From positions 16,887,001 to 16,951,000 of the forward strand of contig CM075777.1 of the NCBI GenBank assembly GCA_037974665.1: a stretch of 64,000 nt of DNA, in the 5' to 3' direction. Shown here piece after piece: positions 4,806 to 60,885 of the stretch (position 1 is the stretch's first letter; every line of letters begins with the position of its first letter). The translations under genes and the position numbers were made by a program. This DNA comes from Ehretia macrophylla. Lineage: Eukaryota; Streptophyta; Magnoliopsida; Boraginales; Ehretiaceae. The notes below the pieces were generated by a model that had not been told where the DNA came from, made no database searches, and saw nothing but the letters and a program-made list of their open reading frames with translations.

Positions 4806-5060
4806 CCATTTAGTCTAACAGTATGATATTTGTTTTAAATACCAAGAGTCTCGAAATTCATTCTTGTTTGTAATATTTTAAGTGATTTAAAATAATTTAC
4901 ACAACTCTTAATTAGAATGAAATTTGCATTTGTGAGCCCGGGACTATTAAGCCAAAAAAAAAAACTTGATAAAAGGTGTAACGTGAGTCTTCGTTGTCAA
5001 TTGAAATAACATAGGATGTACATGTCAATTAAAATAACATATGATTATTTGCCAATTCAA

Positions 5061-5548
5061 TAAAGTTTGGGGAAATAACATGCATTCTACTCACGAATAG
5101 GACAAAAATTAAATCTAGAACATTTTATATTGAATAAATAAAAAGGAATCATATATTTCTTCGATGATGGCTTATCGATCGCAATTGTTGACTTTCATCC
5201 GATAGGAGACTTACGTGATTGTGTTGTACTGTAAGTTCTCTATTGTCAAGTAATTCAAATTGGAAACTAAATATATAACTTCAAATTATATATCAGTGAT
5301 GACATAAAGTTTGGAGAAATAACATGCATTCTACTCACGAATAGGACAAAAATTAAATCTAGAACATTTTATATTGAATAAATAAAAAGGAATCATATAT
5401 TTCTTCGATGATGGCTTATCGATCGCAATTGTTGACTTTCATCCGATAGGAGACTTACGTGATTGTGTTGTACTGTAAGTTCTCTATTGTCAAGTAATTC
5501 AAATTGGAAACTAAATATATAACTTCAAATTATATTTCAGTGATGACA
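5061..5548. repeat. Tandem duplication, 2 x 244 bp
   Basis: Units 5061-5304 and 5305-5548 are nearly identical, both beginning TAAAGTTTGG and carrying the same internal text. Copy 2 of the segment has only one unit (around 47480), so this expansion happened after the segmental duplication. Confidence 0.9.
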
Positions 5549-6452
5549 TAAACTTTAGACTTACACATCTACGGTCTATCGAATGTTAATATATAAATTG
5601 ACAAAAAAAAAATGAATGTTAATATATACTAGTTGGTCGGACAACGGCCATTTTGCACCTTTTATCTTTTGTATTATCCTTAATCAAATGATTTTTTTAT
5701 ATTTCACCTTAATTTCACACATAATTGATCATTTGGTCATTGACTATGATTTGTAGAGTAAAAAACATGCCATTGCTTTCAAATTAATAGAGAAGATCCA
5801 CCAAATATAAAAAAGCTTAGAGCTGCCTAACAATTCCTATTTTTCTTTTCAATTTTCAGAAGTGAATATAGAAAGTGCAGATGGTGGATTAACACTCTTC
5901 CAATTAGCAAGTGCTAGTCTTTCAGTTGAAGTTGGAAGAGTGAACATTGTGAAACCTAGAGCCCAAGGAAGCTCTAAAGTGTGACTACTGTAATATATAC
6001 TTCCTCGACCAGTTTAAGACATATAAGCCACTAATTTCACACGAGTGACTGACCTCCCTCGAATGATCGGTGCTGATACAATTGTCTTAACATCAAGGAA
6101 GTTTTTTGTGAGGATAATTTCGTCAATAAAAATGGGGAAAATATGGATAAACAAACATCAAGCGATTCCTTGAATGCATGCTTAATTTGCATGTTGAACT
6201 CTGTGATCCAATAATCTCCATTTAAAATTCATGGTTAGATAATACAAACTAATTTATGTTAGTTTTGAATCTCTTAAGCTTAATGATAAAAATATATGTA
6301 CGCTTGATATGCCAATGAAGCCTTACTTGGACAAGTTAAAATTTAAATTCAAAAAGGGGAAAAAAATTCTTTAATTCTTGGTGTTAATAATGCATTTGTG
6401 TGTGTTGGTGTTTTGGCAAAAATAAGCAGTGAAGTTTGTGTTGCAGTTTTCC
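5549..6452. other. Duplicated intergenic DNA, no gene supported
   Basis: This is collinear with about 48190-49471. A 41-codon frame with the same stop (5862-5984; 48480-48602) is preceded by a splice-acceptor-like pyrimidine tract here, but almost every difference between the copies is non-synonymous and the acceptor AG is absent in copy 2, so I do not call an exon. Confidence 0.4.
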
Positions 6453-11396: not shown

Positions 11397-11401
11397 GCAT
11401 C

Positions 11402-11753
11402 TGTTATGGTTCAGGCAATTACAAGCCCAAATCAAGTGATGGATCGTGATCCAAGTGTAGTAGGGCCCAAAGCAAATAACGAACGCACAAGCCTAGGCCT
11501 TAGGAGAAGCAACATGGCAAGGACTTACGTGTACAGTTAGTTACATATAGAATATAAGAGGTAAAGAGCATGTGATGTATGAGGGGTATAAAAAGATAAA
11601 AACAGCATAGTGAAAGGCTAAGCAAGATCTATTTCAATTTCTATTGCAATTTTTTCTCTCCAATTTCTTATTTTGATCTCAAAACTATTTTCTTTCTTTT
11701 AGTTTCTTAAAGTTTTATGTTTAATACACTCCCTAAAATCCAAAAGTGTAACA
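11402..11753 (+). repeat. 5' LTR of the gene-capturing retrotransposon
   Basis: 352 bp, TGTTATGG...GTGTAACA, matching 17897-18270 with scattered substitutions and indels. TATAAAAAGATA near 11588 is a plausible TATA box. Confidence 0.9.
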
Positions 11754-11754
11754 T

Positions 11755-11773
11755 TGGTGCTTTCATTGAGAGA
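11755..11773 (+). promoter_or_regulatory. Primer-binding site (tRNA not assigned)
   Basis: TTGGTGCTTTCATTGAGAG starts immediately after the LTR end, the position of minus-strand priming. I recognise this as a common sequence after Ty3-like plant LTRs but cannot assign the tRNA with confidence. Confidence 0.65.
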
Positions 11774-13010
11774 ATGGCCGAAGGTGCCGGACTCAACGCC
11801 ATGGAGGACACGGTAACGAAGCTTATGCAAACTACAACACCAAATACTTGAAAGCTCGATGGCTTTCAACAAACACTTGGCAACCTCACTTCTAAGCTCA
11901 CAACGATTGATGGCAAACTCAATCAGTTGTAGCTCCTTTCAAAGAAATTCGTGGCACGAAATGCCCTTTCATCCACTTCTTCAATGGTCAACCATGGTGA
12001 GCCCACACACCATGATGAACGCATAAATTCTAATTTCAACAGACACGTGGTCCTCTTCTAAATCCAGCCACTACTTCTGTAACTCCCCGATCCCTCACGA
12101 GACCGGGGTCCAAATCCCAAACCCAAGGCACAAAAATTTAGGGAAAACGGACGGAGTCTCCTTTGTTTATAGGACTAATAAAAACCTGCGAATAATAGAA
12201 TACAACTACAAAATCATAATCGAACATTCTCATATACTTCAAATTCAACCACTAAGCTAAGCCTCGTCTCAAGGCCATCCAAGCCTTAGACTCAACAAAA
12301 TAGGTACACAAGCATGCATAGGCCTCAAATATTGAAATACTACGTTATAAAGTCAATTACCATACCATTTTAACTTTATCTCTTCAATTGACTTGTCTAT
12401 TAACCCAAGCAAACATGCACGCCCATTAAACAATGACATAGTCAATTAAGCTATTACAGGCCACCTACAAACCAAATACAAACAAGATCCAATATAATTA
12501 CAAGCCGAGTTTCTATAGTTCCAATCAAATTACAATTCAAACCACTTCACTAATTCACATGGATTCGCAGGTTTTAATAATGAAAGCCAACACAACCAAA
12601 CACGGTAACTCTCGAGCTTTCTCTGTATCACCTTGCGAAGGTGCTGAACTTGAAAGGTGTTAGAGACGAGGGTGAGTATACAACTGGTATACTCAATGAG
12701 AGAGATGATGCAACATACCGGGCATGCAACATGATATGCAACAGGACAAAAGCCTATTCAACATCAAATAACACAACAAAATAAACAAGTAATTAACCAC
12801 ATATCAAAAGGATACGGTTCCACTTCAAGTCTTCAATCTTGTACCACGAACTTCATGCAAGTGCCGGCAAACCCATACTCCAACAAGCTGGGATACTCCG
12901 GATGTATTCTGATCCTACCACCGTTTCTCCTGAGGTAGGTCCATATGCCCAGCAGGTGAACCACGCCTCTGGGGTAGTGGAGTATACTCAACGAGAAAGG
13001 GAATAGGCAC

Positions 13011-13070
13011 TATGGTAGTCGAGGGAGCACGGCAAACCCGACGCCGCCCGTGTTTGTCGACGCTACCATG
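13011..13070 (-). other. Conserved 60-nt hairpin of family-L LTRs
   Basis: The arms here are TATGGTAG and CTACCATG on the plus strand, 60 nt end to end. One outer pair is weakened to a G-T wobble on the sense (minus) strand. GTTGCGCAAC follows at about 13080. Confidence 0.65.
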
Positions 13071-13352
13071 TCCGACAAGGTTGCGCAACGCCGAATCATG
13101 ATCACAAGAGCCAAGTATATCAAATATCACATAAGAGGAACGACAAAGTAAGCCGTCCTCACAGTTAATCATAAATAACATGAAAAGACACAAGATAGCA
13201 AGTAAATAACGCTTATAAACTTGATCAACTACTAATGACTATAATCTAGAACTAATAAATTAAGTTAAGATGCATAGAATAGATGAAGGCTCCCTCACCT
13301 CTACCAAGCTCCAAAATGAGGATTGGCTTCACATCACTCTCAATCACCTTGA

Positions 13353-13494
13353 ACATAAAGTCAAACATTACTTCAATTACTCTTTAACTACAACATTCAC
13401 TAATTACCCAACTAAGTTAGTTAACATAAAGTCAAACATTACTTCAATTACTCTTTAACTACAACATTCACTAATTACCCAACTTGGTTAGTTA
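13353..13494. repeat. 71-bp tandem duplication within the solo LTR
   Basis: Two adjacent units starting AACATAAAGTCAAACATTAC differ only near their ends (TAAGTTAG versus TTGGTTAG). Confidence 0.9.
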
Positions 13495-16064
13495 ATTTAT
13501 AGTTTCACTTATTTAGCATACAATATCTATTAGAATTCTATTTTTAAAAATATACTACTTTTATATACTTTAACTTAACATATATTCCAAGTAGTCATTT
13601 CCCACAACATAACTCATATATTTATAAGCAACACGGCATTATAAACAAGATACAAACATATTTTAATGAGTTAGCCATACAACTTATTTCATGAAACTTC
13701 TCCAAACAACTACATATTACATACCAATACCATTTAAACTTGTATTTTAAATCATTTAAAAGTCAATTATAATAACTACATCAATTCAAATAACCAACTA
13801 TGCATCAAGCTCAACTAGTTCACATAAAATCCTACTAAAACCTTCCTACATGCTTAGTATTTAGGTCATAAGCTTCACACTTATATAACATATAACTCAA
13901 TCATGATCAATTAGAGCTAGTATAATAATAATAACTACTAGTGCAACTAATTCAAGTAATTCACAAGAATCCAACAAATCTCCTTCTAAATGCCTACAAA
14001 ACAAGCTCTAAACTTCACACATGAGAACAAATTCCAAACCTAACTTTACTACTCTTATATAGTCACATTATGATGCATACAAATGCAACAAAACCACCAT
14101 TTAGGTCATGTTAACATAAAACTCCGAAAAGCCCTTTAAGTAATTTGAACTACAACTATCTAATTCGATTATCTAAACCACGCCATAAATACATCTTAGA
14201 GGCTTCCTAATACATCTAAGATCATATACTTATTCAAACAAGCCAGCGCTAAAACTTCGCTTCGAAGAACCCTTCGTCTACTAAAACAATTTGACACCCA
14301 AATGAAACACAAGGTACAAGATCCACAAGTAAGTTATGCCATACTTCTAATGACACCTTATGGCACCAATTAGAACCACAAGACCTCACTTTATACTACA
14401 TCCAACATAAAAGTCCCAAAATCCCCTTTTTATGCATTTTAACTACAAGTACTCTAACCAAACCTCAATTTGGCACCATAAAGGCACATTAAGCACTACC
14501 ACACCTAATAAAGACTATCTACATCATTATATTCCATCCGGATTCACTTTTCGGATAAAGCCCCTTTGAATTCTAAGCTAATTATGCAAATTTCCTAAAG
14601 TTCCAATCAAGCCAATCACATCTAATCACTAATCTATGCTCATTAGAGCCTATATTACCTATAGATAGCATCGAATCAATCCTAGAATCAACTTTGCACA
14701 AAACCCTAAATATCACTAAAACATTTTCCATTTTCTCCAACAGAGGCTTAACTTAATCAATCCAGTTACCTATGCTATATACCTCCAAACTGACTGATTT
14801 TTATTTATAAACGTATCTCTTTGAGTGTAGATGACTTTAGCCTCAAGCGGAACTCAATTCCGATCTAAATTCCACAAGTTATGACCTTTTCCGTACAATT
14901 GCGCGAACTACCCCTGCACCAGCGATTTTCAAACACATTTCGGAAATAGCTAAATTGTGGGGCCAAAATGTTAGAATTTGCCTTAGCTCTAGAAATCCAC
15001 ATTTGTTCTGAACTGTCTAATCTAGCTTCCATATAAATTTAGTTCAATTCTAAGCACGTTTGTAATACCAAAACTACTTCGGAAGTCAGGGGCAGTGCAG
15101 TGTCCAAATCCGAATTTTGCTTGCTTATCATCTTCTTGTTATTTCTTGCATTTGAGCCAACAATAACCATTACTTTCGCCTATATAACATTCCTACACTT
15201 CATTTAGGATATTTAACAAACACCTAAAATACACAATTTCACTTAGTTAACAAAGCAACTCTACAACTAAAGATAGCATGCAAGAATTCATTCTATGAGC
15301 ACTAGAGAGTTCCTACAACCTTTAGCATACTAATACTTTAGCTTAACATACATTTCCAACATCTTTGAACACTTACATAAAACATAGCATGCAAACATAT
15401 AGTTGAATAATCCAAATAGAATGCAAATAATATGAATTCCATCACCTAGACATGAAGAATGGCATGAAAATTGATCTTACAAAGCTGATCTCTTCTTCTT
15501 CTTCTTCTCTTCTTCTTTCCTTTCTATCGTGTGTTGTGTGTGTGTGCTGAATTTATGTGTGGGTGTGTAATATACATATATTTTGTTTTGTTTTATTTAG
15601 TAAATAGGATATTAATTAAAGTCCAAAGTCTAATTGCGCTTCTAACTATGTAATATTAATTAGTTTGCTATTTGATTCTAATCTAACAAATTCAATTTCT
15701 TTTGCTAACCATTATCATATAATTAACATCTACAATACTTAAACACGCAAATGCATGCTAAACGAGACAAATGCATTTTTTTTTTATTTTTTTCAAGAGA
15801 TATGAAAAGTAATGATAACAAATATATGCAAACAATTAAAGTAATATGTAAATAATTAAAATAAGCATATTAATGTATGCAAGTAAATAAAAATAACTAT
15901 ATGTTCGAGGTCGGGGTGTTACAGCTTCAACCACAAGACCCTTTGCCGTCATTTTTCAACTTTGGCAAATAGCTCGAGTCCGACCTCCAAAACCTCGACA
16001 ACGAAGATAAGTTGGATACTCGATCCTCAATTAGCCTCGATGCACCTTTGATTACGAGAAATAG

Positions 16065-16825
16065 AAGGAAGAGATAAATTCTGGCTCATTTCAGCAATCC
16101 GAAGCTGTTAATTCAAGTTCACAAGATTGGAAGGCTTGTTTGAGGATACCACCACTAGATACTCGGCACAGAACGGAGGATATGACAACCACAAAGGGAA
16201 ACGAATTTGAAGACTGCTTTCTCAAGCTTGAGTTGCTTATGGGAATATATGAGAAAGGATTTGAAAGACCATCTCCGATCCAAGAGGAGAGTATTCCTAT
16301 TGCTCTGACTGGAAGTGATATCTTAGCTAGAGCTAAGAATGGAACATGGACAACCGCTGCCTTCTGCGTTCCTGCTCTAGATAAGATTGATCAAGATAAC
16401 AAGGTTATTCAAGTTGTTATTCTTGTTCCAACTAGAGAGTTGGCACTTCAAGTATCACAAGTTTGTAAAGAACTTGGCAAGAATTTGAAAATTCAAGTCA
16501 TGGTTACTACCGGTGGAACCAGTCTAAGAGATGACATAATGCACCTCTACCAACTGGTTTACTTGCTAGTTGGAACTCCAGGAAGAATTTTAGATCTTCC
16601 GAAAAAAGGGTGTTTGCATTTTGAATGATTGCTCGATGCTTGTAATGGATGAGACCGACAAACTTTTGTCACCAGAGTTCCAGCCTTCGGTTGAGCAGTT
16701 GATTATCTTTATGCCAGCAAATCGTCAAATTCTAATGTCTTCGGCTACCTTTCCAGTTACAGTCAAGGATTTCAAAGATAAATACTTGCATAAGCTACAC
16801 GTAATCAACCAAATAGATGTGGGTT
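16065..16825 (+). pseudogene. Captured DEAD-box RNA helicase fragment (DHH1/RH6-RH8-RH12 type)
   Basis: The frame reads NSSSQDWKA and [17 protein letters not shown], then PTRELALQ (motif Ia), [13 protein letters not shown] (motif Ib), VMDETDKL (motif II) and SATFPVTVKDF (motif III), in the order and wording of plant DHH1-like helicases, which act in mRNA decapping and storage bodies. It covers roughly the end of the N-terminal extension through RecA domain 1; domain 2 (motifs IV-VI) is missing. It cannot work. The Walker A segment reads AKNGTWTT, with the Gly-Lys of GKT lost, the DEAD box reads DETD, and one extra G near 16613 shifts the frame. Genes of this family normally have introns; none is present, so an mRNA was the source. 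It is joined at about 16822 to PPR sequence. Confidence 0.9.
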
Positions 16826-17070
16826 TAGGTGAGGCGGGTCATGGGATGGTAGTGAAGATGGGGTTAAGTGTTGATGTGTTGGTGAGCAATGCCTTGATTG
16901 CTATGTATAGAAAATTTGGGGTTGTTAAAGAAGCGTTGAAAGTGTTCGATTTTATGCCTGAGAGGAACTTGGTGACTTGGAATTCAAGCGTTGAAAGTGT
17001 TCGTATACTTGATGCTATAGAAAAAGAATTTGGGCTTAAACTTGGGACGTTTAGTTATAATTTGTTGTTG
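16823..17070 (+). pseudogene. Captured pentatricopeptide-repeat (PPR) fragment(s)
   Basis: In frame with the helicase tail, the sequence reads GHGMVVKMGL..SNALIAMYRKFG..EALKVFDFMPERNLVTWN, one to two repeats of the long PPR class found in organelle RNA-editing/processing factors. After an exact 18-nt direct repeat (16931-16948 and 16986-17003) it continues ILDAIEKEFGLKLGTFSYN, which may be a second PPR piece of the short class. Only 50-80 residues out of several hundred are present and there is no organelle transit peptide, so it is a fragment without function of its own. Confidence 0.75.
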
Positions 17071-17460
17071 ATTTTTTTTATTGATGAGAATCTCGCGATT
17101 GTTTCGTCGTTTGGTGCACCGGAGTATTACGTTGCTCGCAATCCTACAATTGACTTAGTACTAATATTAGTCATTGTATCACCTTTAAGTGAGACCTCTG
17201 GCTTTGATATGTTCAAGGTATTTGGTGCAATACCTGTCGCAACAAGCAGCTTTTTCAGATTATTGTCAACTAAATCATATGTGCTTCTCTATCCTAGTGG
17301 TGTTCGCGAGGCCATACATAACAAGGGCAAAAATTACAAATTATTCTGGCCTGATCAACCCAAATTTGTGAGAATAGCAGCAAAGTTTGGGGCAACAATC
17401 ATACCTTTTAAAGTTATTGGTAAAGATGATCTCGTACAATTATTTGGAGTTATGCTTTGG
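17071..17460 (+). pseudogene. Captured phytyl-ester-synthase/diacylglycerol-acyltransferase-like fragment
   Basis: From about 17200 the frame reads FDMFKVFGAIPVA, then LLYPSGVREAIHNKGK, YKLFWPDQPKFVR and AAKFGATIIPF, matching the C-terminal acyltransferase region of plastid esterase/lipase/acyltransferase proteins (PES1/PES2 family), which make phytyl esters and triacylglycerol in chloroplasts. The hydrolase half and the far C-terminus are missing. The stretch 17071-17190 is not identified and may be a separate piece. The frame is continuous with the preceding PPR and helicase-tail frame (16621-17466), giving one 281-codon chimeric frame. Confidence 0.75.
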
Positions 17461-17890
17461 CTATGACTGTGGTGAGATCATTAGTTGTATACCTTGAGAA
17501 GCTAAAATTTTCGAATGATACTGCATCCTCTTTTTGTTCTCTGCTTGAGACGCCATGGAAGCTTTGGTCATGCAGCGACTGCCCCTTTTTGAAGGATGCT
17601 GCTTCCACTGGTTGTGTTGTGTCACTACTTTTGGAGGAGCTTCATAACTACAACATAGTTGCTGTTGAAAGACAAAATCATGTGGAGCAGATATATCCAT
17701 CAAAGGCGTCTACTTTTGAAAACTCTTTTGGCACCTCAAGTAAGTTGTCCTTTGGGAGTACATCATTCCCATCAACGAACCTTGGAAGTAGCACTTTTGA
17801 GCTTGGTTCATTTTGCCTCATCTTGAGCTTGGAAGTATTTGAAGCCTACCATGATTTGAACCTTGAGGACAAGGTTCTCTCAAAAGGGGC
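17457..17890 (+). pseudogene. Unidentified captured sequence up to the polypurine region
   Basis: A 199-codon open frame starts inside the end of the acyltransferase fragment, runs through unidentified coding-like sequence (VVYLEKLKFSND; Cys-rich WKLWSCSDCPFL; a Ser/Thr/Gly-rich stretch) and continues into the 3' LTR, where it stops at 18056. I do not recognise the source. The part 17705-17830 also has an open minus-strand frame and could be an antisense capture. GAGGACAAGGTTCTC followed by AAAAGGGGC near 17863-17890 looks like the retroelement's own 3' end. Confidence 0.45.
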
Positions 17891-17896
17891 ATGTAA

Positions 17897-18270
17897 TGTT
17901 ATGGTTCAAGCAATTACAAGCCCAAATCAAGTGATGGATCATAATCCAGGTATAGTAGGGCCCAAAGCAAATAACGAACGCACAAGCCCAGGCCTTAGGA
18001 GAAGCAGCATGACAAGGACTATGCCTCATCATCTAGAGAATTACGTCTACAGTTAGTTACATATAGAATGTGAGAGGCAAAGAACATGTGATGTATAAGA
18101 GGTATAAAAAGATACAAACAACATAGTGAGAGGCTAAGCAAGAACTATTTCAATTTCTGTTGCAATTTCTTCTATGCAATTTCTTATTTTGCATCTCAAA
18201 GCTATTTTCTTTCTTTTAGTTTCTTAAAGTTTTCTGTTTAATATACTTCCTAAAATCCAAAAGCATAACA
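17897..18270 (+). repeat. 3' LTR of the gene-capturing retrotransposon
   Basis: 374 bp, TGTTATGG...GCATAACA, followed by the target duplication GCATC. It differs from the 5' LTR by several substitutions and a roughly 20-bp insertion near 18015-18040, so the insertion is old rather than current. Confidence 0.9.
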
Positions 18271-18275
18271 GCATC

Positions 18276-19686: not shown

Positions 19687-21999
19687 TGTAACGCCCCGAT
19701 CCCTCACGAGACCGAAGCCTCGTTCTAATACCCGAGGTCATGAAAAACGAGAAAAAACGGACAGAGTCTTCCTTGTTTAAAGGGCTATTAGTTCACCTGC
19801 AAGCAGTAACTTATTCTCAAAATTACAATCCAACTCCAAGGTACAATCCCATTCACACAAGCATGCAAACTAACTAGGCAATCAAGTAAATCATAGAAGT
19901 TATTACAACCCATCTACAGTTATTAACCTATATAAGAATACAAACTTTACTTCATATTACAACATTTTAGACAATAGAAACATACACAAGGATTCATAAT
20001 CCCAAAACAAAACACATACAACCAGCAACTTGCCTTTCCTGCACATAGACCAGTACATAGCATCCAACCATAACTTTTCCTGAAACATGTTAAAACGAGG
20101 AATGAGTAACCAAAGTTACTTAGTGAGGGAGGTGATGTAATAAACCAGGGTATGTTTTCGTGAGATGCAACAAGATAAAAACATTAATAACACAAATAAA
20201 CAAGTTAATTAGACAAGTATTTAATCACGTATATAAAGGATACGGTTCTACTTGTCTTCCATCACGAGCCACAAGCCACGAGCCAAGATCTTCAAACAAG
20301 TGCTGGTAAACCCTTATTCTTCCAAAATGGGGTACTCCAGATGTACCCCGATCCTACGACCCTTTCTCCTGAGGTAGGTCCACATGCCCAGCAAGTGAAC
20401 CACGCCTCTGGGGTAGTAGAGTATACTCAGCGAGAGAAAGAGAATAGGCATCATGGTAGTCGAGGGAGAATGGCAAGCCCGATGCTGCCCGTGTTTCTCA
20501 ATGCTGCCATGTCCAAAAAGGTTGCACAATCCCGAAACCAATTCACAAGATTCAAGAACATCAATTAACACGTAAGAGGGTCGACAAAAGAGGTCGCCCT
20601 CGCATTTAATCACAATATAAGCCAATATATGCGAAATAACTATATAATCTCAAAAGAGGCGAACAACATATCTTTTCCCACAACCTCCTCAAATAGCTCA
20701 ATTACACTTTAGATAATCATATAAGTACATAATAACACATCTACAAGCATTATACGCATCAAAGTAGCCAAATACGACTTTTTTCCTTTCTTTGGCCAAG
20801 TCTTTCTTCTTCTATATGCATTTCGAAGTTACAAAACCATAATCTAATCATACTACATTCGTACTTAAGTCAAAAGACACCTATCAAGGCCATGAAAATT
20901 CGTTTTGGAGGCAAAAGCTCGAGAAGGTCCCGGGCGAGTTTTAACTACAACTACCTTATTCGGACCCCAATTTCACGCAACGAAAGCACCAAAAGTGCTT
21001 CCATTCCCCAAGGATACCTAATCCAAAGCTCAAATGTGCCCGGATTGTATTACGTAAAAAATCCCCTTTTTAGAGTTAGCTAATTTTGTAATTTTGCTTA
21101 ATTTCGGGTGATTCAACTTCACGTGGCCTCACAACTAGTTTTACTAAAGCCTAGAGCACCTAAAAGAACCCTCAATTCATTCTAATTAGCAAGTTTTATC
21201 AAAACCCTAAGTTTAAGCATTATTCATTATCTTCTTTACAATCTCAAGCTTCAACCGTGAATATAGCTTTTACACAACACAATCAAGATATATAAAGCTT
21301 GTAGAAGATATATTAAACAACATTTCAGCATAATATAGGCCAATAGCAACAATTCAAGAAATGTTGAAACTTTAACATAAACTTAAAACATCAAGAAAAT
21401 GCAAATCTCCCTCAAAAAGTAGTTGTAGATGCATGGAACAAGCTTGAGCTAGGTTGAAATTCCTTGTAGAAGCTTAGTTGACATCCAAGATCAAGATTAG
21501 AAGATGAAGAAATCCCCCTTTTCTTTGCCTAGGGCTATCGGGTTTTTGGGGGGCTCTCTTGGGTTTTATTTTTTTGTTTTTTTTTATCAATATAAGGCAT
21601 GCATATGTTATATTGTGTATATATGAATAAGCATGTGCAATTAATTAAATTCAAATACTACTAAATCTTGGTCAAACTAAGTTAAAAGTGCCAATTAATT
21701 GCTAGCTAATGTAAATCAAAGTTTACTCTTACGTAACATTATTCAACCGAAGTGAAAACCATTTTTTAAACGCATACTCCCAGGCTCGAAAGTCCAAAAT
21801 GACAAGTTTTTGATTCCTTTTATATGTCATTTGGTTTAAGAAAAATATTAAATCGAACAGTTAAGACTGTCAAATTTCTTATGAATAATGTCCTCTAATT
21901 AAAACAATTAAGCAAGAAAAAAAAGAAATGCACATAAAAATGCTCAAATCGATATGCAACAGTTATTCAAAAAGATGTGATGAAATTTCGAGCGTTATA
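19687..21999 (-). repeat. 3' LTR of the non-autonomous family-L element
   Basis: 2313 bp. The plus-strand text starts TGTAACGCCCCGATCCC and ends GAGCGTTATA. The conserved hairpin is at 20452-20511 (CATGGTAG / CTGCCATG), while the upstream palindrome is decayed to GGTTGCACAATC. Frames at 20314-21083 are LTR sequence, not genes. Confidence 0.92.
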
Positions 22000-22000
22000 C

Positions 22001-22036
22001 TCTCCCCACCTTCAACAAATTGCGTCATCGCAATTT
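22001..22036 (-). promoter_or_regulatory. Polypurine tract and perfect pre-PPT hairpin
   Basis: On the minus strand AAATTGCG-ATGA-CGCAATTT (22036-22017) is a perfect 8-bp stem with a 4-nt loop, followed by GAAGGTGGGGAGA (22013-22001) that abuts the 3' LTR. Confidence 0.75.
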
Positions 22037-23105
22037 CTTAAACTCAAAAGATTCCTCGATAGCTGTAACAGTTCTATTCGGTTTTGAAGGTAAAAAAGCA
22101 CGATACCCCAAAAGAAGAACACCAATACATACGCCAAGCGAGATTACCAATAAAATTTCCAATAAGAATACTAGAGAAATCTTCATAAGTAATCCTGAAT
22201 AAGTACTCCAATACGAGATCCGATTGCAAATGTTATAGATAACGTTATTATCATATATTAATGTCAAGATGAATATCAAGGGGATGTTCTATATAAGAAT
22301 TTCCAATAGAATTCCAATAAGCACACGAAATATGGATGTTGGATAAGTATGCCACTAAGAATTCCTAATAAAAATGTCATGGAGGTTACCATTTACGAAG
22401 ATTTGAAGAAGAATTCCAATCATGATTTATTATAAGAAGTCCAGTTGAAATTCCCATATGAGAATACCAAAATATTAAGTAGAATATCCGAGCGTAGTAC
22501 TAGAATTCCGATATAATACTTTATAAGAATTCTAATGATCAAGATCCAATGGTAAAAGAGAATACCAAGAAAGATTATAGAAGATGAATACCAACGATTA
22601 TTTGCTAAATAAAACCTCTAAGTACTAAATCCTTTTCATTGATCATCGATAGCCAGCTGGTTCATAATTCTCTCTTTCACTGGTCCACATCTTCAGATGA
22701 GCCATTACTGATCATCTCTTTATAGGGGAGAGTGTTCACTTACCATATCAACGAGTAATGCATGTATGTGGTAGATTTTACATATGATAAGCACTTATAC
22801 ACTTTATTACAAATAACTAAGGTAGGTAAACACTCAAGAAATCACTTACATGCATAACTAATCACATAAATAAGCATATCATATAAGTTTCACTTATTGC
22901 ACAAAGAGGTCACATAGGTGTACACACAATCACATGTTGCATAATCTTCCTATTTCACGTATTCATAACACATAAGAGCATATTTCACTCAAGTAAACAC
23001 AACCCTCATGCAAGCACATACTTATTCAAGACTCACTTCACAGGCACGCACTCAAGGTTCACTACCCAACAGGCCAAGGACCCTGTCCCGGCTGTGAGCT
23101 ATTAA

Positions 23106-23117
23106 GCTCTGATACCA
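23106..23117 (-). promoter_or_regulatory. Primer-binding site, initiator tRNA-Met
   Basis: The minus strand reads TGGTATCAGAGC four bases after the 5' LTR end, the standard 12-nt complement of the 3' end of plant initiator tRNA-Met. Confidence 0.9.
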
Positions 23118-24028
23118 CTTCTGTAACGCCCCGATCCCTCACGAGACCGAAGCCCCATTCCAATACCCAAGATCACAAAAAACGAGGGAAAACGGACAGA
23201 GTCTCTCTTGTTTATAGGGCTATTAGTTCACCTGTAAGCAGTAACTTATCCTCAAAATTACAATCCAACTCTAAGGTACAATCCCATTCACACAAGCATG
23301 CAAATTACCTAGGCAATTAAGTAAATCATTGAAGTTATTACAACCCATCTACAGTTGTTAACCTATACAAGAATACAAGATTTACTTCATATCACAACCT
23401 TTTAGACAATAGAAACATACACAAGGATTCATAATCCCAAAACAAAACACATACAACCAACAACTTGTATTTCCTACACATAGACCAGTACATAGCATCA
23501 AACCACAACTTTTCCTGAAACATGTTAAAACGAGGAATGAGTAACCAAAGTTACTCAGTGAGGGAAGAGATGCAGTAAACCAGGGTGTGTTTTTGTGAGA
23601 TGCAACAAGATAAAAACATTAATAACACAAATAAACAAGTTAATTAGACAAGTATTTAATCATGTATATAAATTATACTGTTCCACTTGTCTTCCATCAC
23701 GAGCCACGAGCCAAGATCTTCAAGCAAGTGCCGGCAAACCTTTATTCCTCCAAAATAGGGTACTCCGGATGTACCCCAATCCTACGACCCTTTCTCCTGA
23801 GGTAAGTCCACATGCCTAACAAGTGAATCACGCCTCTGGGGTAGTAGAGTATACTCAGCGAGAGAAAGGGAATAGGCACCATAGTAGTCGAGGGAGGACG
23901 ACAAGCCCGATGCTACCCGTGTTTCTCAACGCTACCATGTTCGAAAAGGTTGCACAATCCCGAAACCAATTCACAAGATTCAAGAACATCAATTAACACG
24001 TAAGAGGGTCGACAAAGGAGGCCACCCT

Positions 24029-25506
24029 TGTTAGGAATAATGCCCAAAAGCCAATAAATTATTTTTTTAGAATAATAGATAATGTGTTATTTAATTTATT
24101 AATTCATTTAATATGGGCAGTTTATTTATTTATTATAAATTTTTTTGATTAAATAAATAGAGTCCTTAGAGTACTATTTATAGATTCTATCCTTAGGAGT
24201 AAGGATATGAGTGATAGAATCTATAATCATAAATATATTCTAAAAGTTATTCACGATCATAGGATAAACTAATTGGGCATTAGTTTATCTAGGTAGATCG
24301 GATTACAGTCTACTAACCAAATTATATGAGATATCAGTTTGGGTGATTTATCTCATATCGTTATTGTAGATGTATAAGTACTTACTGTGAATAAGTAACT
24401 GGACTTGACCACCGATACAAGGAATTACATGGAATGTCAATAATTCATTGTATCATGTAATTATGCAATTAATCCTCAGACTTGAGACACTACGATTATC
24501 TCATGATTAGTATTGTCATGATTTGCTGGTGCGAATAAGTTAGTCTTAATCATGGATTAGACAATATATTCAGTATTTGTAATTTATTTCGTCATGGAGA
24601 AATGTGTGTGTAAATAAGAAAACTGTCAATTGGGAGTCCTATGCAATCTGATTAATTAAGTGACTTGAAATCCTTGGCCAAGGTGGAATAGTAGAAGTCG
24701 TTCCACAAATTATTCATTAGTCACTAATTAATTGGGTTTTGGCATATGGTCTAGTAAAAGAGTTTGACGACCTAATCCATGACTCTGGCTCGATCGGGAT
24801 AATTGAGACAGTAGGATTTGATTACAGATAAATTACTATTTGGGTTCGCGTACTTGCACTCCATCTTTAATTGGATAATCGCGATACACTATTAGGTGTC
24901 ACTCATGATTTGTAAATTAATTAGAAGAGTTCTAATTTAATTAATTAGTGGAATTGATTATTCGCTACCAATTAAATATGAACCCGAGAGGTCACACACA
25001 AATGGAATTTGCAGATTAATTGGATTAGAGAAAATATTAAATTAAACTTAGGATCGTCCTAAATATTAATTTAATTGGGCTCGTAGTAATTAGATGGTGA
25101 TCTGATTATTGTGGAGCCCAAGGCTGGTAAGTTTAAGACCAGCCCACTTATGGCTTAGGTCATATATGTTCCCTATATATAGTAGCGTTCTGACAAAGAA
25201 ATAGATAGCACAATTTATCAGTCAGAAAAATATATATGATTTCTCTAGAAACCTAGTGGGGGTAGAAATCCAATTAACAAATGCAGATTCTGTGTGGATC
25301 AATCTTAGAGGCTTCACATGTGGGGAGCTTGATTCAAATTCTATATCGAACTATGCTTCAAGACGTAATCCTAGAACTAATGCAGATTTAATTTAATTAG
25401 ATTAAATTATTATCAGATTTAAATCTGCGTAATTAAACATGAACAGACACATGATTAATTATTTCCGCTGTGCAATTATTTTAATTGTCATGTATATTTC
25501 CCAACA
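24029..25506 (+). repeat. Copia 5' LTR (1478 bp)
   Basis: It is near-identical to 31610-33041. TATATATAGTAG near 25175 is a plausible TATA box. It retains about 45 bp that are missing from the 3' LTR around 31858. Confidence 0.93.
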
Positions 25507-25507
25507 A

Positions 25508-25519
25508 TGGTATCAGAGC
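25508..25519 (+). promoter_or_regulatory. Copia primer-binding site, initiator tRNA-Met
   Basis: TGGTATCAGAGC begins one base after the 5' LTR. Confidence 0.92.
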
Positions 25520-27645
25520 CACCGTTCATGTTTGTTATGTGATTTAGCGTTTATGGCACATTTCCTATATCTCTTATGTTTAAAATTAAAGTTGTTTAAT
25601 TTTATAATAGCCTAATAAAAGTTATTCTTCCCTTATTTTATGAAAAAAATTCATAGGATATTATTATAGAAAAATTGTTTTTCTGTAATCTGGTTTTATT
25701 TTTATTTTTCCCAGATTTTTAATTGTGGTAAAAGTTGTTTTATTATTTAAAAAAAAAAACCTTTTTGCTCTCTCCCTCTGCAGTGGCTAGGCCACTGCTG
25801 ACAGCGGCTCATGACGCTATTGTAATAGCAGCGCTGGGCGCTGTTACTTCGGCGGACCCAGAGCGCGCCGCTGCACCCAGCAGCACCGTGTGGCGCTGTT
25901 GGGAATAGCAGCGCTGCAGGCAGCAACCACGCAGCAGTATCACAGCACAAAGAGGTAGCGCCGCTGCCAAGGCTGCCACCATGGCTGCAAGGTGCAGCCA
26001 TGGTGGAAAAAGAAAGAAAAAGGAGGGAGGGGGGGGGGGGGGGGAGGGGGGCACAGGGAAGAGAAAAGAATTTTTTTTTTTTTTTTGGGGATCTAGGGTT
26101 TGGACTTGGATCTGAATCCCCACATGGGATTCGAATCCAGGTCCAAACCCATGACCCAAGGGTTAGAGTTCATGGGTATAGGCTTGTCTTGTTTTATTTT
26201 TTTTCTAAATTGGGCTATTAAAGTTTTTGGGCCTTTTTGAGTTGTTTTTAAAATAGTATTTTTAAGTGATTGGGCTGAGTCTATTTTAATAAAAGGGATT
26301 GTTTTATTAATTTAGCCCAAAACTTTATTTTGATAAAACTCTATTTTATTTGAAGCCGAAAAATGATATTAAGAGATTTAATTAATAAATTGTTTATTAA
26401 TTATATTATATAAATAAAAGGTGTTTTTATTTATTTTAGAAAAATGAGATATTTTTTGCTTATTTGATAAATGGTTTATTAAATTTAGGCAAATAGATAT
26501 AATGAGATTATATCAAGGAAATTAATTGTGCCATATTCGTGGATTACCTATAATATTTATGATTGAATGCTTGGATGATCATGGAATAGAATGGATGAAT
26601 GAATGATGAATGAATATATGTTTATTTATTTATTTATTCATTTGGATTTTATGTAATTATTTAAATGGGGCTTACATGCCTCTTACCCATTTTGATAATG
26701 TAAAATCCCTATTCCCATTTATGTATCCCACTAGATTAGGAATCTATTTACATAAATGTAATAAGAAGATCAAGCAGGACGCATCAAGGAGTTGATGGAC
26801 CCGGTTCGCATAGGGAGTTTTGTGAAGACCAACAAGGAGTAGCCCAACTATTGGGCCCTAATTTTATTTAGGAATTCAACCCAGTGGCTCTGGTTGATAG
26901 TACTCCTAGTCCATGATCATCCTATTTATTTATATGCATTTATTTATTATGCGATATATATTAAATGCGTGGATGTTTCTAATTTAGTTTATATGATAAA
27001 TTGAAACCAGAAGCATGTGAAAAGTGAGACCTTAATTAAAGACCGGCAAATCTTCCCACTCCAAATATTAAGTTAATAATGATAGTAGCCTAAGAGTAGA
27101 TTATATCATTGTCTTCCATTATCATAGATTACTTTATGTGTTAGGCAAATGAATAGCTGACTGTGGACACATAGGGGCTATTTATTTGTATTAATACGTG
27201 AGCTAAGTCTTTAAAACATGAGATGTAGGAGAATTTAGATTCTTACTGGCTACCAAAAATCTATCATGTGAGGGGTCAGTATTGCATTGATCCAAATTTC
27301 CTAGGATAATGGGTTTGACTTAAACAATTCTTAGAAGACCAAAAATCTATAATGTGAGGTCAAGGGAATTGTAGGCAAGTAAATTAGGATTTGTATGTGA
27401 TGCATTGAATAAGGTGTTATTTAGTCTTGTATCACCAAGAATCTATAATGTGAGGTGAAACAAAAATTAATGGGCCCTCCCAATCCACTAAGAAAATCTT
27501 TTATTTGATTTTTCGTTTTCTACTAGGGAAGTGTGGGATCCAAAAAATTTAGTAGGGGTACTATTTGATTTAAAGACCCAAGTCATGTAGTTAATAATGC
27601 GTTATCTAATTTCAATTAATTATTTTCTGCAGTTACATGTAAAAA
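25520..27645 (+). other. Copia leader: GC-rich structured block and phased repeats
   Basis: 2.1 kb without a credible gene. 25780-26000 is a GC- and GCAGCGC-rich island in AT-rich surroundings, followed by a run of G (about 26029-26044) and a T run (about 26070). Near 27255-27465 a motif close to CCAAAAATCTATAATGTGAGG occurs three times at about 90-bp spacing. Frames on the minus strand at 25747-26159 are by-products of this composition. Confidence 0.7.
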
Positions 27646-28455
27646 ATGAATCCTCTTGCAACTATCCTAGATAAGAACTATTTGACCGGACCAAACTATG
27701 CTGACTGGTTCCGTAACTTGAAAATCATACTGAGTTCTGAAAAGATTGAGTACGAGCTTGATGGTCCACTTCCTGAAAAGGCTCAAGGGGCATCTGAAGA
27801 GGAACTGGAAACCATTAGGAAATGGCGTGATGATGCGTTGAAGGTCAAAAGCTACGTCTTGGCTTCAATGACAAATGAGCTTCAACGTCAACACGAGGAC
27901 ATGGAAGATGTCACTGAAATCATCAAACACTTACAAGAGTTGTATGGTGTAAAGAACAGGGTTGCTAGGTGTGAGAGGGAATTGTTCCGATTGAGGATGA
28001 GTGAGGGATGAGATGTCAATACGCATGTTCTTAAGATGATCGGTTTGATCGAGTGTCTTGAATCCTTGAATTTATCTATGGATTCGAACTTGCAGACTGA
28101 CTTGATACTTCAATCTCTACCTGAATCCTTCCATTCCTTTATTGTCAATTTTCAGATGAATGACATTGATCACACCTTACCTCAGCTCTTGAATATGCTG
28201 GTTATATACCAAGGGCAGATGAAAAGAAAAGGTAAGAAGACGGTGTTGGCATGTGCCTTTTCTTCATTTGTTAAGAAGCAGAAAAGGAATAAGAAGAAAT
28301 ACAAAAAGGCCCTTTAGGGCAAACCTACTGGAGGCGTGTCCAAGAAGAAGGGGAAGGTAGCAAAGCTAGGAACTTGTTACCACTGTGAGAAAGAAGGGCA
28401 TTGGAAGAAGAATTGTCCAGAGTACCTCAAGAGTTTGAAGGGAAAGGGCAAGGCC
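27646..28455 (+). pseudogene. Copia gag (nucleocapsid precursor), broken
   Basis: ATG 27646 starts MNPLATILDKNYLTGPNYAD, the usual start of copia gag of the UBN2 type, and ends with a CCHC zinc knuckle CYHCEKEGHWKKNC at about 28375-28420 that would bind RNA. The frame is kept throughout but is cut by TGA at 28009 and TAG at 28315. The first stop follows MSEG, the second follows a Lys-rich linker. Gag forms the particle that packages the element's RNA. It continues in the same frame into pol, as is normal for plant copia polyproteins. Confidence 0.92.
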
Positions 28456-31400
28456 TCTGCAGTTATGTCTTGATTGCTCATGTTTGAGATTAGTCTTTTA
28501 ATTAATCATGACTCTACTTCATGGGTGCTAGATTCTGGTGCCACTTCTCGTATATGTACTTCTGTACAGGAGCTGAGGAGAAGTAGAGCTTTGGGAGAAG
28601 GCAACGTGGTCCTGAAGGTAGGAAATGGAGCAATGGTTGCTGCGTTAGCTGTTGGGACATGTTGTCTTACTTTGTCATCTGAATTTACTTTCGTTTTGGA
28701 CAATTGTTTGTTTTTGCCAAATGCTTTGAGAAACATCATTTCCGTTTCAGTTTTAGTTCAAAGTGGTTTTGAATTTAAGTTTATGGATAATAGATGTTTT
28801 ATTTATTTGCGAAATAAATGTGTTGGCATTGGAAAATTGGTAAATGGGCTTTATATACTTGATATAAAGAGAAACGATAATAAAAATGAGCAATGCATGA
28901 ATGTACAAACCTTTAAAAGGTCTAGAGATACTATTAATTCTAAATGTTTGTGGCACTTAAGATTAGGTCATATAAGGGAAGCTAGAATCACGAAGTTGGA
29001 GAAAGAAGGACTTATAAGCGCATGTGGCCCAAGTCCATTCCCAGCATGTGAATACTGCATCCTAGGTAAAATGATCAAATCACTCTTTGTGGGACAAAGG
29101 CAAAGAGCTACAAACATTTTAGAATTAATACACACTGATGTGTGTGGGCCTTTTGGTGAATTGGCCCGATGTGATTTTGCCTACTTTATTACTTTTATTG
29201 ATAATATATCTCGGTATGGGTATGTGTATCTTATGAAATACAACTATGAATCCTTTGAAAGGTTCAAAGACTACAGAGCAACAGTAGAAAAACCAAATTG
29301 GAAAAAGGATTTAGGCTCTTCGGTCTGATCGAGGAGGAGAATACCTTAGTACTGAATTCCAGGAGTATCTCAAATAAAATGGTATAGTCTACCTGGAACA
29401 CCTGAGCTTAGTGGTGTGTCAAAAATAAGAAATAGGACTCTGTTAGACATGGTCAGATCAATGATGAGTTATACTGATTTACCTATTGGCCTTTGGGGTC
29501 ATGCTCTTCTCACTGCGGTATACATCTTGAATAGGGTCACTTCCAAATCAGTTGTAAGCACTCCTTATGAGATCTGGAGAAATAAGAAGCCCAGCTTTAA
29601 TCACATTAGAGTATGGGGTTGTCCTGCTTACATTAAAAGGCTTAAAATTGAGAAATTGGAAGCGAGATATGACAAAGTCAGATTCATTGGTTATCCCAAG
29701 GATTCATTGGGATACAACTTTTATTCCCCTACTAACCAGAGAGTCTTCGTTAGCAGACATGCCATAATCTTAGAGGAAGAGTTCATCCAAGAAGGTGGTT
29801 TGGGAAGAAAAATAGAGCTTGATGAGGGAAACATTGAGCAACCAATTGATCAGGTAGAAACCCAGGATTTGATCCAGGATGAAACTATTCAAGAAGAACC
29901 GATTGCTTTACCACAGATATGCAAATCTTTAAGGACTGTTCGTCCCCCCACAAGATATAACTACCTTCATAGCCAAGGACAAGAGTTGTTCACATTGAAT
30001 AATGGTGATCATGTTGATGATCCCATTACCTATGAAGAAGCTATTTTGATAGGGACTCAGAAAAATGGCTTGAAGCCATGAAATCTAAAATGGATTCAAT
30101 GCACACCAATCAAGTCTGGAATCTTGTAGACCCACCTGAGGGTATTGTACCTATTGGGTACAAACGGGTATATAAGAGAAATAGGGGTGCAGATGGGAAA
30201 GTGGAGACTTTCAAAGCAAGGGTAGTGGCAAAAGATTACCTTCAGAGACAAGGAGTTGACATTGAGAAAACCTTCTTGCCAGTAGCAATGTTCAAATCCA
30301 TTAGGATTTTATTGGCTATAGCTGCACACTATGATTATGAGATATGGCAGATGAATGTCAAAGCGACTTTTCTTAATGGCTTCATTGAAGAAGACATTTA
30401 TATGGAACAACCAATGAGTTTTGAATCCATGGGTGAAAGCCACAAAGTGTGCAAGCTAAAGAGATCCATCTATGGACTCAAACAGGCCTCAAGGAGTTGG
30501 AACAAATGTTTTGACGAGGTCGTCAGAACATTTGGCTTCATTAAGAATGAAGACGAGCCTTGTGTTTATAAGAAAGTCAGCAATAAAGCAGTTACATTCC
30601 TCATCTTGTATGTAGATGACATACTACTGATTGGGAATGACATTGGTATGATAACATCTGTCAAGGTCTGGTTATCAGGAACATTCTCTATGAAAGACTT
30701 GGGAGAAGTAACTTATATCCTAGGAATTCGAATCTATAGAGATAGATCAAAATGATTGATAGGTTTATCCCAGAGTATGTACATAGACAAGGTGTTAAAG
30801 AGGTTTAACATGCAGGATGCTAAAAAGGGGCTGTTACCTTTTAGACATGGCATTTATTTCTCTAGGGCTATGAGTCCTAAGACAGCTGAAGAAAGAGATA
30901 GGATGAATAGGATTCCATATGCTTCTGCAATTGGAAGTCTTATGTATGCTATGCTATGTACTAGGCCTGATATCGCTCATGCTGTAAGTGTTACTAGCAG
31001 ATATCAGTCTGATCCAGGTGAAGAACACTGGATAACAGTCAAGAATATCCTGAAGTACTTGAATAGGACTAAGGATATGGTCTTGGTATATGGAGGAGGG
31101 GAACTAAAAATCGAGGGTTTTACGGACTCAGATTTTCAGTCTGATGTGGATGATCGTAAATCCACATCTGGATTCATTTTCATTTGTAATGGAAGAGCTG
31201 TCAGTTGGAAGAGTTCCAAACAGAGTACGACTGCAGATTCCACTACAGAAGCCGAATACATCGCAGCATCAGATGCAACAAAAGATGCAGTTTAGATCAA
31301 AAAGTTCGTCTCGGAACTTGGAGTGGTTCTCTCCATTGAGGTCGCAATGCTTTTACATTGTGATAATTATAGGGCGATAGTGCAAGCTAAAAAACCAAGG

Positions 31401-31588
31401 TCTTACCAAAAATCCAAACACGTAGAGAGGCATTACCACATTATCTGAGAAATTGTGGGAAGATGTGACATAGTGATGTAGAAAATAGCTTCAACAGATA
31501 ACACTGCTGATCCGTTGACCAAGGCTCTGACTAAGCAGTCTTTGGATCGACACTTAGAGGGGATGGGTATGAGATACCATTCTGATTG
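28456..31588 (+). pseudogene. Copia pol: protease, integrase, RT, RNase H, broken
   Basis: In order: aspartic protease WVLDSGATSRIC (about 28520), pre-integrase CLWHLRLGHI (28940), integrase ELIHTDVCGPF and [19 protein letters not shown] (29120-29470), reverse transcriptase with YVDDILLIGND (about 30608, the catalytic YVDD), and RNase H with TEAEYIAASDA (31245) through PLTKAL. Defects: TGA at 28471, a frameshift near 29300 restored by about 29410, a frameshift near 30045, TGA at 30753 and TAG at 31293. The reading continues to about 31588, just before the purine tract and 3' LTR. It would have copied and integrated the element; it is now dead. Confidence 0.93.
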
Positions 31589-31609
31589 ACTTTAGTGCAA
31601 GTGGGGAAT

Positions 31610-33041
31610 TGTTAGGAATAATACCCAAAAGCCAATAAATTGTATTTTTGGAATTATGGATAATGTGTTATTTAATTTATCAATTCATTTAATATGAGCA
31701 GTTTATTTATTTATTATAAATATTTTGATTAAATAAATAAAGTCCTTAGAATACTCTTTATAGATTATATCCTTAGGAGTAAGGATATAAGTGACGGAAT
31801 CTATAATCATAAATATATTCTAAAAGTTATCTCCGATCATAGGATAAACTAATTGGGTGTAGTAGATATCAGTTTGGGCGATTTGTCTCATATCGTTGTA
31901 GTAGATGTATAAGTACTTATTGTGAATAAGTAACTGGACTTAACCACCGATACAACGAATTACATGGAATGTCAATAATTCGTTGTATCATGTAATTATG
32001 CAATTAATCCTCAGACTTAAGACATTACGATTATCTCATAATTAGGAATGTCATGATTTGCTGGTGCAAATAAGCCAGTCCTAATCATGGATTAGACAAT
32101 GTATTCAGTGGTTATGATTTATTCCGTCATGGAGAAATATGTGTGTAGATACGGAAACTGTCAATTGGGTGTCCTATGCAATCTGATTAATTAAGTGACT
32201 TGAAATCCTTGGCCAATGTGGAATAATGGAAGTCAGTTCATGATTTATTCATTAGTCATTAATTAATTGAGTTTTGGCATATGGTCGAGTAAGAGAGTTT
32301 GATGACTCAATCTATGACTTTGGCTCGATCGGGATAATTGAGATAGTAAGATTTGATTGCAGATAAATTACTATTTGGGTTCGTGTACTTGCACTTTATC
32401 TTTAATTGGGTAATCGCGATACACTACTAGGTGTCATTCACGATTTGTGAATTAATTAGAAGAGTTCTAATTTAATTAATTAGTGGAATTAATTATTCGC
32501 TATCGATTAAATATGAACCCGAGATGTCACACACAAATGGAATTTACAGATTAATTGGATTAGAGAAAAGATTAAACTAAATTTAGGATCGTCCTAAATA
32601 TTAATTTAATTGGGCTCGTAGTAATTAGATGGTGATCTGATTATTATGGAGCCCAAGGCTAGTAAATTTAAGACCAGCCCACTTATGGCTTAGGTCATAT
32701 ATGTTCCCTATATATATTAGTGTTCTGACAGAGAAATAGCTAGCACAATTTATCAATCAGAAAAATATATAGGATTTCTTTAGAAACCTAGTGGAGCTAG
32801 AAATCCAATTAGCAAGTGCAGATTCTGTGTGGATCAATCTTGGAGGCTTCACACGTGGGGAGCTTGATTCAGATTCTACATCGAACTACTCTTCAAGAGG
32901 TAATCCTAGAACTATTGCATATTTAATTTAATTAGATTAAATTATTATTTGATTTAAATTTGTGTAATTAAACATAAACGGATACATGATTAATTATTTC
33001 TGCTGCGCAATTATTTTAATTGTCATGTATATTTTCCAACA
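31610..33041 (+). repeat. Copia 3' LTR (1432 bp)
   Basis: It starts TGTTAGGAATAATACC after GTGGGGAAT and ends CCAACA. It carries a deletion of about 45 bp near 31858 relative to the 5' LTR plus scattered substitutions, so the insertion is not recent. Confidence 0.93.
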
Positions 33042-46748: not shown

Positions 46749-46874
46749 ATAAATTATGTGTCATTTTAATTGGGAATTTATATTTTTCAAAAGATTGTAC
46801 ACTCGTCCCATGCGTCACTTCTGCCAATGATCATTCACTATTGATTGTAAAACGACCATATTATCCCTTATTTT

Positions 46875-47153
46875 ATGGGACAACAAACATCCCGTAATGG
46901 AATTGTTGGTGGAAGTGGTTGTGATGGAGGTGCAATAGGCAATGGATATGGTAGTAGTGGAGGTGATCATAGTAGTGCAGGAAGAGCACATGGAGGAGGA
47001 TACAAAGGTGGAGAGATGAGGTGGTGGTCAATTGTGTTAATGGTGGGGAAGAACAAGAGAGGAAAGAAGAAAGAGGAAAGGAAAAGAGAAAATGAAAGAA
47101 AAATGAGCAAACATCTATGGATATTTTTGTCTTCAAATATGTGGTATACTTGA
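46875..47153 (+). CDS. Possible glycine-rich small protein (doubtful)
   Basis: A 92-codon ATG frame: a Gly-rich N-terminal half (GGSGCDGGAIGNGYGSSGG), then WWSIVLMVG, then a Lys/Glu/Arg-rich tail. There is no clear signal peptide. The paralogous frame at 4506-4805 stays open with one in-frame indel but lacks the ATG. Differences between the copies are almost all amino-acid changing and there is no promoter or splice evidence, so it is probably a fortuitous frame in purine-rich repeat DNA, or the relic of a glycine-rich protein gene. Confidence 0.2.
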   Translation: MGQQTSRNGIVGGSGCDGGAIGNGYGSSGGDHSSAGRAHGGGYKGGEMRWWSIVLMVGKNKRGKKKEERKRENERKMSKHLWIFLSSNMWYT

Positions 47154-60840: not shown

Positions 60841-60885
60841 TAGTGGTTTCTCAGTGGGTGGTGGGAAAAGAATAAGATTGTTCTT

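Follow-up and report, generated by a model that had tools for sequence, protein, structure and literature searches.

A chimera of host-gene fragments in an old Ehretia macrophylla LTR retrotransposon and its relatives with differing cargo and termini

The DNA analyzed here, a 64,000-nucleotide window of the Ehretia macrophylla genome (assembly GCA_037974665.1, contig CM075777.1, positions 16,887,001 to 16,951,000, forward strand), contains a long terminal repeat (LTR) retrotransposon in which pieces of several host genes are joined in a chain; feature coordinates are collected in Table 1. The element is delimited by direct LTRs of 352 bp (5′) and 374 bp (3′), which share the termini TGTTA...TAACA (the LTR start reads TGTTATGG) and are identical at 323 of 352 aligned positions, with gaps of 21 and 1. 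A perfect 5-bp target duplication, GCATC, flanks the pair, the primer-binding site TGGTGCTTTCATTGAGAG adjoins the 5′ LTR, and a polypurine run, AAAAGGGG, lies 7 nt upstream of the 3′ LTR. Paired direct LTRs with TG...CA ends, a 5-bp duplication, a primer-binding site and a polypurine tract are the features of an LTR retrotransposon, and an earlier sequence-only reading of this locus, which had called its borders firm from the LTR pair, the duplication and the primer site, is borne out on all three. The complement of the primer-binding site, CTCTCAATGAAAGCACCA, suits a tRNA 3′ end, presumably that of tRNA-Thr. The Kimura two-parameter (K2P) distance between the LTRs, 0.0886, corresponds to about 3.4 million years (My) at 1.3e-8 substitutions per site per year, or 6.3 My at 7e-9.

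The same reading held that most of gag and all of pol had been replaced by cargo, which proved correct in part. Pfam detected no reverse transcriptase, integrase, protease or RNase H in the six frames of 15924-17896 or the three plus frames of 11754-12077, and a decayed gag start is left, with weak sub-threshold Pfam matches only. By these scans the element is a putatively non-autonomous one that lacks an intact gag-pol, and diverged pol pieces may persist below Pfam detection. Over half of the interval, on the other hand, is a nested repeat and not cargo: an insert at 12078-15923, previously overlooked, makes up 56% of 11402-18270, and the element without it measures about 3.0 kb. The insert ends in TGTAAC...GTTACA, and its target duplication, ACTTC/GCTTC, matches at four of five positions. 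The 13-base end pattern, with at most two mismatches allowed, occurs eight times in the window against 1.38 expected, and stretches similar to the insert lie elsewhere in the window. At 23122 a relative has this end next to GAAG and TGGTATCAGAGC on the minus strand, the position of a primer site, which we take to be of initiator-Met type. Pfam found nothing at E 0.1 in the six frames of the insert, which we read as a probable solo LTR of a long-LTR family that arrived later than its host element. Captured cargo, also considered for this 3846-bp middle, is ruled out by the repeat ends, the target duplication and the relatives in the window.

The cargo proper spans 16004-17800 and consists of an 88-nt piece, a DHH1-type helicase, a PPR, a piece denoted X, a DAGAT acyltransferase that we presume to be PES-like, and a piece denoted U. 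The assigned pieces are all in sense orientation, as had been claimed, although one relative (L026, below) holds an antisense piece. The helicase fragment matches Pfam DEAD at E 7.8e-24, and its best PDB relatives are CGH-1, DHH1 and DDX6/p54 at 175-208 bits, the next helicase scoring 98; the PPR fragment reaches 42-46 bits against PLS-type designs. The trimmed acyltransferase piece scores 24.3 bits with DAGAT, for which the cut-off is 22, and the whole open reading frame (ORF) 21.2, below it. NCBIfam returned helicase models and a weak PPR match for the cargo; for piece U there was no Pfam, no significant PDB and no NCBIfam match, and its predicted structure, of low confidence (mean pLDDT 45), was set aside. 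At 290 codons, the longest ORF in the cargo is longer than any from 500 shuffles (maximum 143), and none of 300 shuffles gave an exact repeat of at least 16 bp, as compared with the 18-bp repeat at the PPR/X junction. Pieces of several unrelated host genes (helicase, PPR, acyltransferase) thus lie between the two LTRs, as in Bs1-type elements, and some are closely abutted, the helicase donor match ending at 16819 and PPR homology starting at 16822.

Understanding how these pieces were acquired requires their donors. In the host genome (1.58 Gb, 20 contigs) best multi-exon identity singles out a gene on contig 3 (L048) as the probable donor of the helicase, the match being divided among five exon pieces that are 91-94% identical. 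The exon borders of this gene fall at window positions ~16115, 16178, 16412 and 16652, and all four introns have gt and ag ends; the exon match behind the first border is 23 bp long, and exons of 64-242 bp support the others. All four introns of the helicase stretch are precisely missing from the cargo, in agreement with the earlier proposal that parental introns would be absent, and this indicates that a spliced mRNA was captured. Among the cargo pieces, it is for the helicase that an origin from a spliced transcript is demonstrated at the level of genomic sequence. No splice donor is present in L048 where the match ends (16819), so that the capture seems to end within an exon. Weaker or shorter helicase-gene matches were found on contig 13 (four exons, 81-89%), contig 1 (two exons, 78-80%), contig 6 (one exon, 94%) and contig 8 (one exon, 80%). 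Adjacent parental genes in the order of the cargo had been named as a possible contradiction; the helicase donor, the one donor placed, is on a different contig from the element. A literature search for exon data on plant DHH1 genes found none. For the PES-like piece, a related locus (L017) has an open stretch of 972 nt, and an LPLAT-domain acyltransferase gene of Brassica, which we take to be of PES type, offers a comparison. That gene has 14 exons and a coding sequence of 2106 bp (PMC8138439). With so many exons in the Brassica gene, the open L017 stretch is hard to explain without splicing.

A genome search with the LTR, which had been suggested for counting copies and their cargo, gave at least 37 matches, two of them within the window, and revealed a multi-copy, modular family; 18 stretches around other matches were retrieved for comparison. 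Eleven loci (L012-L022, hereafter PES-type) share with the window the gag start at 78-83% identity and the PPR end, X, PES-like piece, U and tail at 88-97%, except that U and some of the PES-like piece are missing from L022, whose 5′ LTR is seemingly split by a 13-kb insertion. Relative to L017, the window copy carries 16004-16921 (the 88-nt piece, the helicase and the 5′ PPR) where L017 has a different 489-bp piece, and it lacks, in frame, 798 bp of the PES-like region. Pfam gave no match for this alternative 5′ piece, which we assume to be sucrase/ferredoxin-like. Three pairs among L012-L022 have identical 12-bp flanks and were counted once, leaving eight insertions, of which five show exact or one-mismatch 5-bp duplications. 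LTR ages of the PES-type copies are 0.31-1.90 My (10 loci measured), and L023, L024 and L025 have one LTR each in the stretches retrieved. Copies with an intact gag-pol had been named as a possible contradiction; 10 ORFs scanned in four relatives contained no pol domain. Collections of viral and genome contigs, the wrong kind of collection for such elements, yielded no relatives. As a separate observation, the loci of the sets L009-L011, L012/L013, L014/L019 and L017/L018 share flanks within each set and lie on the same contig, ~0.1-1.8 Mb apart, reflecting duplication either of segments of the host genome or in its assembly.

Intronless helicase copies occur beyond the window on contigs 7 and 9, and among three further helicase-form loci one is complete (L045). 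It runs from the gag start and the 88-nt piece through helicase, PPR, X, the 798-bp stretch and the PES-like piece to U and the tail (87-95%), with 90-95% identity to the window over the helicase, PPR, X, PES-like piece and U. The 798-bp loss of the window element is absent from L045, the one other complete helicase copy. The LTRs of L045 are of another type: at 257 and 258 bp, with 17 mismatches in 257 positions and flanks CAGAA/TAGAA (four of five matching), they give no BLAST match to the window LTR, and global alignment points to a distant relationship (score 80 versus a shuffled maximum of 24.5). The remaining loci, L044 and L046/L047, are partial, and by eye have L045-like sequence at the LTR position; we read L046 and L047 as one copy split by ~9.7 kb.

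In the window copy the Walker A motif GTGKT has become GTWTT (motif from 16332) and DEAD has become DETD at 16648. The donor still has the Walker lysine, which the window, L044 and L045 lack; its loss from all three copies read, with retention in the donor, suggests a single capture followed by copying, and the helicase piece is predicted to be dead. We used only the Walker and DEAD changes as signs of decay because DDX6, too, departs at positions where DHH1 and CGH-1 agree. Departures of the cargo at such positions (18 of 92 and 11 of 36) were accordingly rejected as proof of decay; where a comparison was possible, 9 of 65 and 5 of 36 differ in DDX6, against 13 and 11 in the cargo.

Other relatives carry other cargo. 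The loci L009-L011 on contig 7 have like flanks and were counted as one insertion; the L009 LTR is 85-90% identical to the window and L017 LTRs, and its cargo includes DUF3754 (2.4e-23) and a cullin piece (7.5e-13; PDB cullin-3). L026 has a more remote LTR (76-79%) and a cargo of MORC-like (3.4e-6), C2 (1.4e-7) and antisense ribosomal L1 (4.6e-10) pieces. On contig 10, a RING-H2 finger frame (L023:3094-3588; 8e-15) adjoins a single family LTR, which points either to a further capture or to an LTR lying within a gene. Two near-identical loci on contig 1 have a transposase-like frame, which we read as Harbinger-like, next to the gag start of an LTR copy (L027:6204-7514 and L028:5329-6639).

We consider it very probable that the window element, old and decayed, belongs to a non-autonomous LTR family carrying a chimera of host mRNAs that was made and spread via reverse transcription. 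The anatomy, the spliced origin of the helicase, the core in many insertions, the two 5′ cargoes and the two LTR types are seen directly, and from them we infer how the family may operate. Retaining only LTRs, primer site, gag start and 3′ tail, its RNA would be packaged, together with spliced host mRNAs, in particles provided in trans. While synthesizing the minus strand, the reverse transcriptase would jump to host mRNAs and back, leaving pieces joined in sense orientation, and the cassette would thereafter be copied as ordinary element RNA. Template switching is, in our view, a well-founded explanation of the joins. Later jumps, or recombination of co-packaged genomes, could swap the 5′ cargo while the PPR-X-PES-U core is kept, and the same exchange could move the cassette between divergent LTR types. 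As to the order of events, the PPR in the window extends 100 bp further upstream than in L017, which suggests a longer PPR in the earlier core, its 5′ part having been replaced in the L017 lineage. Whether the lineage amounts to a standing exon-shuffling system, with a constant core and with 5′ cargo and LTRs changed by switching between co-packaged RNAs, we regard as evenly balanced. Several points weigh against the reverse-transcription account. The system is known from genomic sequence alone, and its spliced origin only from the helicase piece; three of the eight PES-type insertions have no clean target duplication; the antisense piece of L026 means that sense order is no rule for all relatives; and the junction filler also fits DNA end joining.

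It is conceivable that the pieces entered as genomic DNA, through repair of a double-strand break or through recombination of DNA within an element already integrated. Templated filler is typical of end joining, and 18 bp of it stand at one junction; yet four donor introns are precisely missing from the helicase piece, for which such a capture is ruled out, and the same chimera recurs in many LTR-paired insertions, several with target duplications, which together make this origin highly improbable. Separate LINE-type retrocopies inserted successively into an LTR element would also account for an intronless helicase, but the helicase match stops inside the donor coding stretch, there is no poly(A), and PPR homology follows within a few bases, so that we give this history almost no weight. 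More serious, if still somewhat unlikely, is the proposal that the exchange of 5′ cargo and LTRs arose through recombination of integrated copies at the DNA level, and not through switches made while reverse transcription was under way. Copies can be near neighbors, contig 9 having the helicase copies L044 and L046/L047 no more than 80 kb apart. L045, however, has LTRs of the other type at both ends, an outcome that would take one step if LTRs are regenerated during reverse transcription and two coordinated exchanges if DNA recombined.

The family also raises the question of whether selection acts on its chimeric ORF as a new gene, as has been claimed for Bs1, with a protein that explains the persistence of the family. 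L017 has an unbroken frame of 826 codons, and 6 of 11 PES-type loci have an interior frame of more than 430 codons, the other PES-type copies being broken to various degrees relative to L017. The ratio of nonsynonymous to synonymous substitution rates (dN/dS) ranged from 0.42 to 1.76 in 28 pairs from eight insertions. Its mean was 0.76 in 21 pairs from seven insertions (L022 left out, and one locus per duplicated pair dropped), versus a neutral simulation median of 0.65 (5-95%: 0.44-1.01). Synonymous and nonsynonymous variants stand in the same ratio among shared variants (10/26) and singletons (57/146), and the absence of stops from the window frame is not significant (1.9 expected, P 0.15). 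Given the neutral-like dN/dS, the equal variant ratios and the lost Walker lysine, selection on the chimera was dropped as an explanation, and the new-gene proposal appears very unlikely. On these comparisons the long ORF looks neutral, more like cargo traffic than a demonstrated new gene.

Elsewhere in the window, 19687-34456 is a nested structure in which a Copia element (LTR-like repeats at 24028-25506 and 31609-33041, with RVT_2 between them) lies within another repeat, whose ends resemble ~2.3-kb LTRs with an initiator-Met-type primer site. A UDP-glucosyltransferase gene piece occupies 54349-54840 on the minus strand (Pfam 3.6e-15). Decayed frames at 58211-60850, also on the minus strand, resemble by reading a Ty3-type retrotransposon; ORF 59123-59440, the sole one scanned there, had no Pfam match. 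At 5060-5552 a 244-bp tandem duplication, its copies 99% matching, lies beside repeats that recur at 46326-48999. Rfam and tRNA scans of the window gave no match, and a Pfam scan of the element's flanks gave nothing informative.

Table 1. Features of the element and its nested insertion, in window coordinates
Feature	Position	Strand	Remarks
Target-site duplication GCATC, 5′	11397-11401		other copy at 18271-18275
5′ LTR, 352 bp	11402-11753	+	TATA-like box at 11587
Primer-binding site	11755-11772	+	complement fits tRNA 3′ end
Decayed gag-like frame start, several stops	11774-12077	+	common to other copies; gag by position and reading, without Pfam match
Nested solo-LTR-like insertion, 3846 bp	12078-15923	-	duplications ACTTC 12073-12077, GCTTC 15924-15928
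Element's own 5′ region, continued	15924-16003	+	common to L017 (83%) and DHH1-type copies
88-nt piece	16004-16091	+	in DHH1-type L044, L045, L047; unmatched in L017
DHH1/DDX6-type helicase fragment	16095-16819	+	frame change near 16600
PPR fragment, PLS type	16822-16985	+	only 16922-16985 common to L017-type copies
18-bp repeat of 16931-16948	16986-17003	+	PPR/X junction; exact second copy in 6 of 11 PES-type loci
Piece X	17004-17173	+	ends where 798 bp kept by L017 and L045 are lost in frame
Acyltransferase fragment, DAGAT	17190-17442	+	Pfam
Piece U	17443-17800	+	10 of 11 PES-type loci have it at 91-94% identity
Element's own 3′ tail	17801-17896	+	polypurine run at 17882-17889
3′ LTR, 374 bp	17897-18270	+	TATA-like box at 18103
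Target-site duplication GCATC, 3′	18271-18275		

The sequence-only reading had placed the element beside maize Bs1, which is said to be about 3 kb in size. The likeness holds for an LTR element carrying a chain of host-gene pieces, with intron absence demonstrated for the helicase; the accompanying view that such elements are a rarely documented class does not, LTR gene capture being common in plants according to the literature. Bs1, with three host-gene donors, and template-switch chimeras are both described in PMC13317346; Bs1 and LTR-mediated retrogenes are also the subject of PMC8764390. Pieces of three unrelated host genes within an LTR element are thus common to both systems. In contrast to Bs1, the window family has different donors, is multi-copy, keeps a constant core to which exchangeable 5′ cargoes are joined, occurs with two LTR types, and gives no sign of the selection on the chimera that is claimed there. 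The different donors argue against membership in the Bs1 family itself.

Host genes captured inside LTR elements number 672 in rice, 1343 in sorghum and 424 in maize, many decaying in rice and many expressed in sorghum (PMC3726574); that account, as far as its available text goes, concerns their spread and not multi-donor cassettes. Retroduplication in pepper, tomato, potato and rice likewise involves captured spliced mRNA, with 1398-3898 genes inside LTR elements across six species, occasionally two or three per element, and ~72% of retroduplicated NLRs reside in elements without gag or pol, for which mobilization in trans is presumed (PMC5664825); a shared chimeric core with swapped partners is not described in the part available. 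Veju and BARE-2 also gained foreign or other-element sequence during reverse transcription (PMC13317346; PMC1950507), but there it is unknown sequence or another element, whereas here assigned host-gene cargo takes part in the exchange. Pack-MULEs and Helitrons carry many gene pieces as well (PMC13317346), through capture at the DNA level, in contrast to the missing donor introns and LTR termini seen here. Our literature search, partial in coverage, found no paper that unites four of five terms for this cargo combination. Gene-capturing plant LTR elements are common in print, and it is the modular, multi-copy exchange that is the new part.

Gene capture by LTR elements is usually viewed as a set of finished, single events, and the relatives described here keep different states of the process. 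If the exon-shuffling proposal is true, one genome would hold helicase, alternative, DUF3754-cullin and MORC-C2-ribosomal cargo sets at different stages of spread. Since a shared core is combined with differing partners and LTRs, junctions can be compared among copies, and the order and mechanism of capture may be readable from sequence. The spread of a long chimeric ORF without detectable protein-level selection is, in addition, a caution against calling such ORFs new genes.

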